From Candidatus Gastranaerophilales bacterium (lineage in GTDB: Bacteria > Cyanobacteriota > Vampirovibrionia > Gastranaerophilales > Gastranaerophilaceae): 32,397 bases of DNA. The stretch lies in assembly GCA_944322975.1 (NCBI GenBank), contig CALUQS010000024.1, positions 1 through 32,397 on the forward strand, in the 5' to 3' direction. How positions within the stretch are numbered: position 1 is the stretch's first letter; each line of letters opens with the position of its first letter. Positions 22,100-25,357 of this stretch are shown in pieces. The translations under genes were made by a program, and so were the position numbers. The notes beneath the pieces are model-generated. The model did no database searches. It was not told where the DNA came from and saw only the letters and a list, made by a program, of their open reading frames with translations.

Positions 22100-22735
22100 T
22101 TATATTAAATGGTTTTTTTCAAGCTCTTTTTTTATTTTATTTAATCCTGCCTGAATAATTCTGGAAATACGTGACGGTGAAATATTAAAATCTTCGGATA
22201 ATTCTCTTAATTTTTTATCTTGAAAAAATTTTGCTTCAATAAGTTCGCGCTCTCTTTGCGGAATTTTTTTCATAGCTTCTTTTATTGCTTCACTCATTTC
22301 ATGAAAATCTGCAAGTTCTGCCGGCGTTTTTGCTGTGTCCCTGATTTGCGTCGGGTTTTCGGCTTCTGCCATTTCATCAATAGAGAGTATGGTTTTGTAT
22401 ACAGCTTCTCTGATATCTTCATGTATTGTCCGGTCATCATCAGAGGCGGCCGGATTTTCTTGTTTTGTTCTCTGAGAATACCATTTATATCTTCTTCTTA
22501 CTTCGTTTCTTATGGCCCATTTAATGGCGGTAGATACATAAGAATTGTTATAATGGGTCATATCCGAAGTAGAACACAGATGATGTACAACCTGAGTTCC
22601 TATATTAACGAGTTCTGAAAAATCTATAAGATAAGAGGAAGAGAGCTTTTTAAACTCAATTTTGGCAATGGTTTCTATAAGTTCGTTATATTCTAACAGA
22701 CTTTTTCTTATAGCAGCCCTTGTACTGATGTCCAT
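22100..22735 (-). CDS. Sigma-70 family factor, FliA/sigma-28-like
   Basis: The 211-residue protein has an alternative sigma factor layout. Region 2 (about 30-105) has SELVNIGTQVVHHLC and YVSTAIKWAIRNEVRRRYKWYSQR. A linker or reduced region 3 (about 110-150) follows, then region 4 (about 155-207) with IPQRERELIEAKFFQDKKLRELSEDFNISPSRISRIIQAGL. The SPSRISRI recognition helix resembles FliA-type factors (usually SESRVSQI). Flagellar genes lie 7 kb away, so a flagellar or motility role is plausible, but a general-stress sigma factor cannot be excluded. The ATG has no strong Shine-Dalgarno; the extended -10 promoter lies 18 nt upstream. Confidence 0.75.
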   Translation of the reverse strand: MDISTRAAIRKSLLEYNELIETIAKIEFKKLSSSYLIDFSELVNIGTQVVHHLCSTSDMTHYNNSYVSTAIKWAIRNEVRRRYKWYSQRTKQENPAASDDDRTIHEDIREAVYKTILSIDEMAEAENPTQIRDTAKTPAELADFHEMSEAIKEAMKKIPQRERELIEAKFFQDKKLRELSEDFNISPSRISRIIQAGLNKIKKELEKNHLI

Positions 22736-22753
22736 TTCAACTCGCTTTTTGGT

Positions 22754-22781
22754 ATTATATCAATGCAAACCTTTATACCAA
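22754..22781 (-). promoter_or_regulatory. Promoter of the FliA-type sigma factor gene
   Basis: On the minus strand TTGGTA (22781-22776), a 16-nt spacer ending TGA, then TATAAT (22759-22754). The TGA forms an extended -10. The leader would be only about 11 nt. Confidence 0.6.
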
Positions 22782-22900
22782 TATTCTAAATTAAAAATAT
22801 TTAACTGTAAAATAATTATAAACTTTTGTAATTGTTTATTAAAAATTTGGCAATATTCACTGTTTGTATCACTTATTAAATTTAAGTGAAAGGAAATTTT

Positions 22901-24928
22901 ATGGAAGTGTCATTTTACGGTAGTAATTTTGTCCCCAAAAAACCGGATAAAAACAATAAAGACTCTAATAAGACTCATACAACAGCGCCTTCTGCTGTAC
23001 AAAAAGCTGTTTCAAAGGCCAAAACCGGGGCAATTATCGGTTTGTTTCTTCTCCCTTCTCTCGGGATAGTCAATAAGTGTTCACAAAACAATGACCCTAA
23101 TAAAATTATAATAGTTGATGCGCCTGTCGATACGACAGAACGAGAAAAATATATAGAAACAACAGACGCAACATTTTATACGGTAAAATCAGGAGACACC
23201 CCTGCCGGTATTGCAAAAAAACACGGTATATCAACAAGAAGACTGCTTGCACAAAACGGTTTAACCGGAAAATCCGTTATTTATCCAAAAGACACTCTGT
23301 TGATTCCTCAGGCTTATCAAGCCAGGAATATTGAATCATTAAAGGATATCGAAAAAATGTCAGGTTTAGGGCAAGATTACCTGAATACCTTAATAGAGTT
23401 TGAACAGTTCAGAAATACTGTTTATAAAGACAGAAATAAAAACGAAACAATCGGTATAGGCCATCTTGTTAAAAGTGATGAGCGTGCGCTATACAGAGGC
23501 AAAACTCTTTCAGACGAACAGGTTTATACTCTTCTTGCACAGGATATTTTGGATATTCAGGCTGATTTAAAAACAGTTATAAACGAACAGGCATACAATA
23601 ATATGCCTTCCCGTCTTAAAGAATCTGTCTTTGACCTGGCTTTTAATAAAGGTATAGGCGCAATAAGTGACAATGACAGACTTTTAACTGCTCTTAATAA
23701 TGAAGATTATGTTAACGCTGTTGCAAATTTGACGCAGGATTATTCGGTTGTTAAAAACGCAAAAGGCGAAAAAGTTCAAAAACCGGCAGCGGGTTTGAGT
23801 AAACGCCGTTTATACGACATAACAAATGCCTCTGAAATTTTTAAAAATTCAATGCCTGATGTTGTTGCTGATTCGGCAAGGGCTGTTTATGAAAGAGGTT
23901 TAAAATACCTTGAAGCAGAAAAAAACAGAGGAGAAATCTCTGCTCAGGCTTATCCTAATGTGCTTAAAGAATACAAAAACCTTATCTATGAATGGTCAAA
24001 AGGTAAAATCGGAGAAAAAGACGGGCAGCAAACTAAAAAAACATCCCCGCAAACAGAAACCATACAAACCTCTCCTTCTAAATCAACAGACAGTTCAAAA
24101 ACAATTTATGTGAACGGTCAAAAAACAAACTGGACGGTTAATTCTCTGCACGATGACTGGCAAAAAACAGCAAAAAGGCAGTTAAGATATGTAAAACGAC
24201 CCATGCCCGAAGTTGATAAAAACGGCAACATTACCGCGTATGTTAAAGTTTTTAACCCTACGGGCAAAGGCAAGCTCAGCGGCAATACAATTATTGTAAA
24301 CCCCGGGCATGGCGGTGCAATGAACTATAAAGAAGAAGACGGAACACTTAATGTAAATTTTGACCCCGGAACAAGTAATGCTGTTATGAGTAAAAAGAAT
24401 AAAAATCTTGAAACTACTAATTTTATAGGTAATGGCGGAAAATCTCTAGAAGAATGGGTAGTAAACCAGAGAATAGCAGACGAACTTGTTGAAAAAATAA
24501 ACAAAGAAGGCGCTAAAGTAATATACGTCCAAGGTTCTGTATACAGCGCAATGAAGGCAATAAGAAACCTTCAAAAACAGGAAAAAATAGATATGATTGT
24601 CAGTTTGCACAGCAATTCAAGCGGCGGCAAAAGAGGAATCCATGTCTATGCAAACAACCGCGGCGGACTCGACAAACAAGATGATGCAGTTGCGCTGACC
24701 ATAGTTGATAAACTTAACGAACACAGCTGGTTTAAAGGTATTACAGAGAAAAAATCAAAATCTCTCGGTGTACTTTCTTCGAGCGCAACAAAAACTTCTC
24801 CGGTTCCGGGTGTTTTAATTGAAACAGGTGATTTAAAAAATAAAGATGACGTTGCTAACTTGAACTCACGAAACTTTAAAAGCCTTTTGGTGGAAGGAAT
24901 ACTTGAAGGCATAAAAGATTGTATTTAG
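22901..24928 (+). CDS. Multidomain peptidoglycan hydrolase: LysM, GH24 muramidase, Amidase_3
   Basis: The 675-residue protein appears to carry two wall-cutting activities. A hydrophobic segment (about 43-58) anchors it or exports it. A LysM domain binds glycan (about 88-137, YTVKSGDTPAGIAKKHGIS). A GH24 lysozyme-like domain follows (about 150-310) with catalytic Glu168 in EFEQFRNTVYKD, TIGIGH, and AFNKGIG. After a Thr/Ser-rich linker comes an Amidase_3 domain (about 460-675) with zinc ligands His470 (NPGHGG), Glu517/518 (EEWVVN) and His570 (SLHSN), and catalytic Glu641 (IETGDLKN). I start at ATG 22901 because AAAGGA lies 6 nt upstream; an in-frame GTG at 22886 lacks a ribosome site. The gene is divergent from the sigma factor gene and stands alone. 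Confidence 0.9.
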   Translation: MEVSFYGSNFVPKKPDKNNKDSNKTHTTAPSAVQKAVSKAKTGAIIGLFLLPSLGIVNKCSQNNDPNKIIIVDAPVDTTEREKYIETTDATFYTVKSGDTPAGIAKKHGISTRRLLAQNGLTGKSVIYPKDTLLIPQAYQARNIESLKDIEKMSGLGQDYLNTLIEFEQFRNTVYKDRNKNETIGIGHLVKSDERALYRGKTLSDEQVYTLLAQDILDIQADLKTVINEQAYNNMPSRLKESVFDLAFNKGIGAISDNDRLLTALNNEDYVNAVANLTQDYSVVKNAKGEKVQKPAAGLSKRRLYDITNASEIFKNSMPDVVADSARAVYERGLKYLEAEKNRGEISAQAYPNVLKEYKNLIYEWSKGKIGEKDGQQTKKTSPQTETIQTSPSKSTDSSKTIYVNGQKTNWTVNSLHDDWQKTAKRQLRYVKRPMPEVDKNGNITAYVKVFNPTGKGKLSGNTIIVNPGHGGAMNYKEEDGTLNVNFDPGTSNAVMSKKNKNLETTNFIGNGGKSLEEWVVNQRIADELVEKINKEGAKVIYVQGSVYSAMKAIRNLQKQEKIDMIVSLHSNSSGGKRGIHVYANNRGGLDKQDDAVALTIVDKLNEHSWFKGITEKKSKSLGVLSSSATKTSPVPGVLIETGDLKNKDDVANLNSRNFKSLLVEGILEGIKDCI

Positions 24929-25168: not shown

Positions 25169-25357
25169 ATGGCTAGAGTTTTAATTTCAATGCCCGAAGA
25201 ATTTTTAAACAAAATTGATGGAGTTGCTCAGGACGAAAACCGCACAAGAAGCGAGCTTATTCGTGAAGCACTCAGAACATATATTCACAAACAAAAAGTA
25301 AGAGAAAACTCACTGGCAACAAAAAATGCCAACATCTTAGAAGCATTGCTTGACTAG
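25169..25357 (+). CDS. Ribbon-helix-helix (CopG/MetJ type) DNA-binding protein
   Basis: The 62-residue protein matches the ribbon-helix-helix fold: a beta strand RVLISMPEEFLNKIDGVA, then the helix-turn-helix part ENRTRSELIREALRTYIHK. These proteins bind DNA as dimers and act as repressors or as antitoxins. No toxin gene adjoins it, so a stand-alone regulator is more likely. GGAGGA precedes the ATG. The 240-nt region upstream (24929-25168) is AT-rich and shows no gene. A 130-nt 3' region and a strong terminator follow. Its target is unknown. Confidence 0.85.
   Translation: MARVLISMPEEFLNKIDGVAQDENRTRSELIREALRTYIHKQKVRENSLATKNANILEALLD

Follow-up and report, generated by a model that had tools for sequence, protein, structure and literature searches.

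The most satisfactory explanation of the gene described here, which we favour with moderate confidence, is that it encodes one form of a muramidase-amidase couple specific to this lineage and used to remodel the wall of the cell itself, present in this genome as a single putative membrane-anchored bifunctional polypeptide. The gene lies in the window, the whole stretch of 32,397 nucleotides analysed (contig CALUQS010000024.1 of assembly GCA_944322975.1, Candidatus Gastranaerophilales bacterium), and its product, referred to as P0001, joins LysM, GH24 muramidase and Amidase_3 domains. The features of the gene are as follows.

22901..24928, plus strand: LysM-GH24-Amidase_3 protein P0001, 675 aa (ORF, Pfam)
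22901..23026, plus strand: N-terminal tail, residues 1-42, lysine-rich and poorly conserved, predicted cytoplasmic (8 K/R versus 3 D/E)
23027..23071, plus strand: residues 43-57, hydrophobic and predicted to act as a signal anchor with N in and C out (KD 2.26 over 15 residues)
23078..23080, plus strand: Cys60, just C-terminal of the hydrophobic segment, invariant in the alignment of 18
23177..23308, plus strand: LysM, residues 93-136 (PF01476, E=3.1e-11)
23336..23935, plus strand: GH24 muramidase domain, residues 146-345, Pfam core 166-303 (PF00959, 1.9e-14)
23402, 23429 and 23447, plus strand: codons of the GH24 triad E168, D177 and T183
23996..24100, plus strand: linker, residues about 366-400, low-complexity and fast-changing (dN/dS up to 1.13)
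24290..24916, plus strand: Amidase_3, residues 464-672 (PF01520, 8.6e-21)
24308, 24452, 24608 and 24821, plus strand: codons of the amidase site residues H470, E518, H570 and E641

The open reading frame can begin at GTG 22886 or ATG 22901 and ends at the stop at 24928; the GTG start gives a product of 680 aa. All three domains scored above the curated Pfam cut-offs (LysM 43.5 bits against 20.9, Phage_lysozyme 54.5 against 22.3, Amidase_3 75.2 against 27), no match to an AMIN domain was obtained in Pfam, and the same stretches of P0001 were matched by endolysin-type and amidase-type models of PHROGs and NCBIfam. The GH24 domain belongs to the phage endolysin family phrog_7. Since phrog_2742, an endolysin family of phages, is also among the matches to Amidase_3 of P0001, and the 24-domain amidase profile also matches endolysin structures (3qay), the division drawn in the preliminary description between a phage-derived GH24 and a bacterial Amidase_3 was too sharp. 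The solved structures matched by this amidase profile include the germination amidase 7rag (1.8e-22), LytH and AmiC (4bin, 1.1e-14), and the corresponding 24-domain GH24 profile matched solved lysozymes and endolysins with a best value of 4.5e-15, its alignment to T4 lysozyme beginning at T4 residue 11.

In the alignment of the 18 genus orthologues the residues E168, D177, T183, H470, E517, E518, H570 and E641 are invariant; E168, H470, H570 and E641 had been named correctly at the outset. The spacing of E168, D177 and T183 corresponds to E-9-D-6-T as in T4 lysozyme. Beyond the genus, the E-D-T triad was kept in 42/42 fused ORFs fetched and in each of the 15 genuine split partners. One further row, the 16th with the split label, comes from a second GH24 in genome G081 that is unrelated and keeps T alone. 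Among the 45 other GH24 rows the D was kept in 23 and replaced by C in 14, a replacement that we take to be common to many phage enzymes. For the amidase, H470, E518 and H570 were found in 60/60 rows and E641 in 59/60, the remaining row being gapped at this position. The pair E517/518 had been proposed jointly as an amidase residue; because E518 is kept in all 60 rows and E517 in just 39, the zinc ligand is E518 and not E517. The claim that one polypeptide carries two enzyme domains whose catalytic residues are intact thus holds, with domains above the cut-offs and invariant residues, and because the two share one polypeptide P0001 could cut both the glycan strand and the peptide link of peptidoglycan.

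Structure prediction answered the question of a lysozyme fold in part. The AF2 model of the whole of P0001 was poor (pLDDT 40, alignment of 3 sequences), and the GH24 domain was modelled alone with a pLDDT of 60. At this confidence phage lysozymes align best to the model, with P1 Lyz reaching a VIA Z of 9.5 (3.8 A over 154 residues), and the muramidase domain of SpmX (6h9d) gave the second structural alignment (Z 9.2); in Foldseek no match at E<=0.001 was obtained for the same model, the best value being 9.3e-3. The GH24 domain may thus have a fold like that of phage lysozymes.

With regard to the N-terminus, the hydrophobic segment at residues 43-57 has its positive side N-terminal in 18/18 orthologues, a charge pattern of the N-in type. 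Since this single hydrophobic segment follows a positively charged tail, P0001 is predicted to be periplasmic and membrane-tethered. No cleavage site was seen by eye in P0001, the segment being preceded by the 42-residue tail. A reading as lipoprotein was considered for Cys60 and set aside in favour of a signal anchor: of the residues that precede it (K, N, H, T and S), only S, found in the single orthologue of G022, fits the lipobox consensus. The N-terminal 75 residues of P0001 were found on no other protein in the 23 genus genomes at E below 0.01, and a 314-aa protein matched them weakly (E 0.011 and above). The N-terminal motif SFxG was considered as a sorting signal and set aside: it occurs in 13/775 proteins against 0.42% per interior 50-aa window, but some of the 13 are P0001 orthologues, and looser N-terminal motifs with F and G showed no clear excess.

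The search for orthologues covered 59 genomes, 23 of them in the genus of P0001. An orthologue with all three domains is present in 18/23 genus genomes including its own (17/22 others), and a relative at 76% identity lies in L031 (Candidatus Gastranaerophilales). The gene is dispensable, because five of the 23 genomes are without it; these are 93-96% complete. In seven pairs dN/dS was 0.05-0.13 for the GH24 domain and 0.04-0.10 for the amidase, which indicates strong purifying selection, and 0.04-0.31 for LysM where computable; the linker reached the value given above. Several dS values in these comparisons were high, and tail, LysM or linker were not computable in some pairs.

The genes around P0001 in the window (prmA, a sigma factor and nupC) look like housekeeping genes. 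Two features lie directly upstream.

22100..22735, minus strand: sigma-70 family sigma factor, 211 aa, divergent neighbour (TIGR02937, 7.1e-19)
22812..22834, within 22736-22885, no strand assigned: conserved intergenic block ATAATTATAAACTTTTGTAATTG (ACTGTAAAATAATTATAAACTTTTGTAATTG), core columns invariant in 16/16 intergenic regions

The sigma gene is adjacent and divergent to the hydrolase gene at 16/18 loci; in G004 and G005 the hydrolase gene is located elsewhere and not beside sigma. The junction of sigma with lipA, identified by eye as lipoyl synthase, was inspected in four of the five genomes without the gene (all but G011) and is unoccupied in each: G018 (L209), G020 (L210), G021 (L211) and G009 (L212). 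The hydrolase gene behaves as a clean insertion or loss at this junction. A close copy of the conserved block was found between sigma and lipA in G018 and G020, and because it is kept beside sigma in these two genomes without a hydrolase gene, the block probably serves the sigma gene as part of its promoter. The sigma factor was also considered as a dedicated regulator of the hydrolase, and this was rejected on account of the retained block and of sigma relatives occurring order-wide in 57/59 genomes. Downstream, at 25169-25357 of the window, a 62-aa protein resembles a ribbon-helix-helix antitoxin by eye; no toxin-like ORF of at least 40 aa directly follows it on the same strand.

For the family as a whole, PF00959 was searched in 146 genomes with at least 85% completeness, and all 96 GH24 places found, in 88 of the genomes, were inspected. 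GH24 is linked to Amidase_3 at 46/96 places: at 31 both are in the same ORF, in four domain orders, and at 15 the amidase is the gene directly upstream.

LysM-GH24-amidase: 8 ORFs, genus of P0001
Amidase-(LysM)-GH24: 12 ORFs, genera g2, g33, g36, g38 and g49
GH24-LysM3-amidase: 7 ORFs, genera g13, g40 and g47
LysM2-GH24-LysM-amidase: 4 ORFs, genus g44
Split pair, amidase directly upstream on the same strand with a gap of <=19 bases or an overlap: 15 places, genera g2, g6, g7, g10 and g53

At 47/96 places the amidase was absent from the ORF and its neighbours; this group contains LysM-GH24 proteins, short enzymes of the phage type (about 13) and a protein truncated at a contig end. There was no clean ORF at the remaining 3/96. 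One of these three, in G133, stands beyond the linked count and has a short GH24 frame with an amidase lying 430 bases upstream; GH24-LysM3-amidase ORFs in G034, G111 and G116, unlisted by the Pfam search, stand outside the 96 places. In some split genes (L036 3768-5552, L038 5458-8274) a helical-looking repeat (NVREVLQEY..., EFDSWGMV...) precedes the amidase, and a similar repeat fills 940-aa GH24 proteins of genus g9. In a sample of 146 genomes of the class, the GH24 profile matched 50 at E<=1e-6, 42 of them in the family of P0001; the remaining eight come from three other families, none of them matching better than 8e-15, and matches at E<=1e-20 are confined to the family of P0001 in this sample. 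The fusion had been called unusual; it is not a one-off, as GH24 and Amidase_3 are linked in several layouts across the family.

Trees were calculated by a quick method with midpoint roots and contain long branches. In the GH24 tree of 100 rows all linked rows fall into one set of 69 (SH-aLRT 84), and the short phage-type GH24 proteins of the family lie on the opposite side (support 84). The genus clade (99) joins a five-row set (94; the set itself 83) formed by the g2 proteins of G082 and G133 together with G066, G152 and G184. For the amidase tree, with rows from the family only and no amidases of other bacteria, 16 signal-peptide amidases were added, the long rows G064, G099, G168 and G169 were dropped and 10/18 genus rows were left out; a branch with SH-aLRT 98 separates 44 linked amidases from 18 others, and the genus clade again lies beside G082 and G133 (94). 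In an earlier amidase tree with two signal-peptide rows and the long rows, the support for placing these two next to the GH24-LysM3-amidase clade was weak (78). Because both halves point to the same relatives with reversed domain order, the couple seems to have been re-ordered rather than newly assembled.

According to the favoured explanation, the lysine-rich tail would remain in the cytoplasm, residues 43-57 would anchor the protein in the inner membrane, and the periplasm would contain LysM, GH24 and Amidase_3; the class is described as diderm in PMC4040986. LysM would keep the enzyme on glycan strands, the GH24 domain would hydrolyse the MurNAc-GlcNAc bond, and the zinc amidase would cut MurNAc from L-Ala and thereby strip stem peptides. 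Made at one place, the two cuts would break cross-linked wall down to short, soluble fragments. Such an action would suit local remodelling or turnover of the own sacculus or cell separation, the presumed target being the cell's own wall. The fusion would be one form of an older couple, confined to the family as far as sampled, that occurs elsewhere as adjacent genes or as fusions of other order. That the same two enzymes are joined in several orders suggests that muramidase and amidase work as a pair. Domains, active-site residues, conservation, purifying selection, linkage and the grouping of the amidases are results of the analysis, from which both activities, the topology and the target are inferred. 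Counting against this explanation are the dispensability of the gene in the genus, the position of C60, mostly outside a lipobox, the poor model of the whole protein and two features of the relatives described below: the N-terminus of most linked ones, and the hydrophobic stretch between the enzymes in the GH24-LysM3-amidase layout.

The export of the relatives bears on the main rival. N-terminal signals of 61 linked proteins were scored by hydropathy, which is a crude test. In the genus proteins the segment lies at about 43-57, and 2/8 were missed in the scoring solely through an upstream called start. By the same scoring, a strong N-terminal hydrophobic stretch was found in 1/23 fused proteins outside the genus (G064) and in 3/30 split-pair proteins, two of these via upstream-extended starts and one with a hydrophobic, possibly amphipathic start, against 14/14 scored signal-peptide amidases of the same family above the same threshold; by eye, a start of this kind is also seen in the remaining 2 of the 16. 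By this measure most linked proteins outside the genus are without a signal peptide, and with the hydrophobic segment missing from the N-terminus of most linked relatives, an ancestral periplasmic role via Sec is not evident. These leaderless relatives suggest a domesticated lysis pair, in which endolysin-like enzymes would reside in the cytoplasm and gain access to the wall when the membrane is opened by a holin-like pore or by damage, resulting in programmed lysis or non-lytic release of cargo, with the anchor added in the genus of P0001. The phrog_7 membership of the GH24 domain and the existence of holin-dependent non-lytic secretion, as described in PMC9527704, speak for this rival, which is nevertheless rather unlikely: no holin or phage gene was recognised beside the loci inspected by eye, the genus of P0001 has the anchor, and a LysM would be odd in a cytoplasmic enzyme.

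Other features of the linked proteins may concern the membrane. In the GH24-LysM3-amidase proteins (L034 6272-8923, L051, L057, L058, L083) a hydrophobic stretch separates the enzymes, and in some of these proteins Cys-Ser comes after it. As a simple anchor, this stretch would place GH24 across the membrane from the amidase. Split LysM-GH24 partners often begin with a stretch like MDFLTEIWNYIKTTFFG, which looks amphipathic by eye and may bind the membrane, as at the following places.

L036 5555-6610, L037 5713-6777, L068 1274-2353, L072 3608-4672: LysM-GH24 partners with a start like MDFLTEIWNYIKTTFFG

A bolder proposal, which we put forward tentatively and regard as a possibility short of likely, is that the couple, composed of a muramidase and a paralogous amidase and mostly without Sec signals, reaches the wall by an unrecognised route through membrane-binding tails or internal hydrophobic segments. 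Having been split, fused and re-ordered repeatedly with both active sites intact, it would then be a device of its own kind and not a variant housekeeping autolysin.

Delivery to other cells as an antagonistic or predatory effector is improbable. Dual wall-cutting and the leaderless relatives would fit such a role, and PMC4040986 names Vampirovibrio as a member of the class that is possibly parasitic. However, the protein of this genus is predicted to be anchored in the membrane, none of the neighbours inspected was recognised as an immunity-like gene or as part of an injection apparatus, and all domains are strongly conserved, with the strongest GH24 matches in this family alone. Nothing was found for the predation on which the preliminary description had speculated, given no cleavable signal peptide by eye, housekeeping-like neighbours and family-confined matches. 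A hydrolase of the flagellum or another envelope machine (FlgJ-like), opening the wall for assembly, is more improbable still. The genus is flagellated (8/8 genus genomes) and fliJ and fliK lie within the window, but flagellin is equally frequent with and without a linked pair (19/47 against 41/99 of 146 genomes, Fisher p=1.0; the 47 are the 46 linked genomes and G034 added by hand), and a flagellar role was rejected as a family-wide explanation. The genome G128 has 23 flagellin-domain matches, against 1 to 11 in other flagellated genomes of the family. Lastly, a recent prophage endolysin, fused by chance and functionless, is very hard to credit: GH24 is a family mostly known from phages, but selection is strongly purifying, the short phage-type GH24 proteins lie across the GH24 tree, the only two matches in phage records were both to one tail lysozyme (26%, 9e-6), no relative was found in viral contigs, and no phage gene neighbours P0001.

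For the favoured wall-remodelling couple, the re-ordered fusions and the adjacent genes in sister genera are strong genomic evidence that both cuts are made together, and they name a pair whose division of work is testable. That the family contains leaderless relatives as well as paralogous amidases whose signals are ordinary raises a question of export or release in these gut bacteria, which are related to cyanobacteria and known mainly from genomes.

Each of the domain families is already known, as are bifunctional autolysins. In literature on Amidase_3/GH24/LysM combinations, bifunctional muramidase-amidase fusions, peptidoglycan amidases of Melainabacteria, lysozymes in connection with Vampirovibrio, and SpmX the fusion was not found described, and as far as this literature was searched a couple of GH24 and Amidase_3 that persists across several layouts and for the most part has no signal peptides appears to be new, the genomes compared being those of the class. 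P0001 resembles GH24 phage lysozymes (T4, P22, P1 Lyz, phrog_7) in profile and E-D-T triad and may do so in fold; it differs from them in being encoded on the chromosome away from phage genes, in carrying LysM and a zinc amidase in the same polypeptide and in its predicted membrane anchor. Multi-domain phage endolysins of the human gut likewise carry two catalytic domains and a wall-binding domain per protein, according to excerpts of PMC13284279. Unlike P0001, they are phage-borne, and the two-enzyme combinations given in those excerpts do not include Phage_lysozyme and Amidase_3 (PMC13284279). With the Amidase_3 amidases AmiA/B/C, CwlD and LytH the protein shares the zinc site H-E-H and the catalytic E; it differs in having neither AMIN nor a cleavable signal peptide and in being joined to a muramidase, and amidases of the P0001 type form a clade separate from the family's own signal-peptide amidases. 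SpmX of Alphaproteobacteria is a chromosomal, domesticated GH24 protein that is used by the cell and attached to the membrane, with a changed catalytic site and no amidase. P0001 is similar to it as a chromosomal GH24 protein with predicted membrane attachment, and in the structural alignment to 6h9d, whereas SpmX-like changes of catalytic residues are absent from P0001, its triad being intact and an amidase attached. Staphylococcal Atl, a secreted precursor of Gram-positive bacteria, consists of an amidase and a glucosaminidase (Amidase_2 and GH73). Two different wall cuts are combined in one polypeptide in Atl, as stated in PMC6262408, and would be in P0001 as well. In contrast to Atl, P0001 combines Amidase_3 with GH24, and does so in a diderm.
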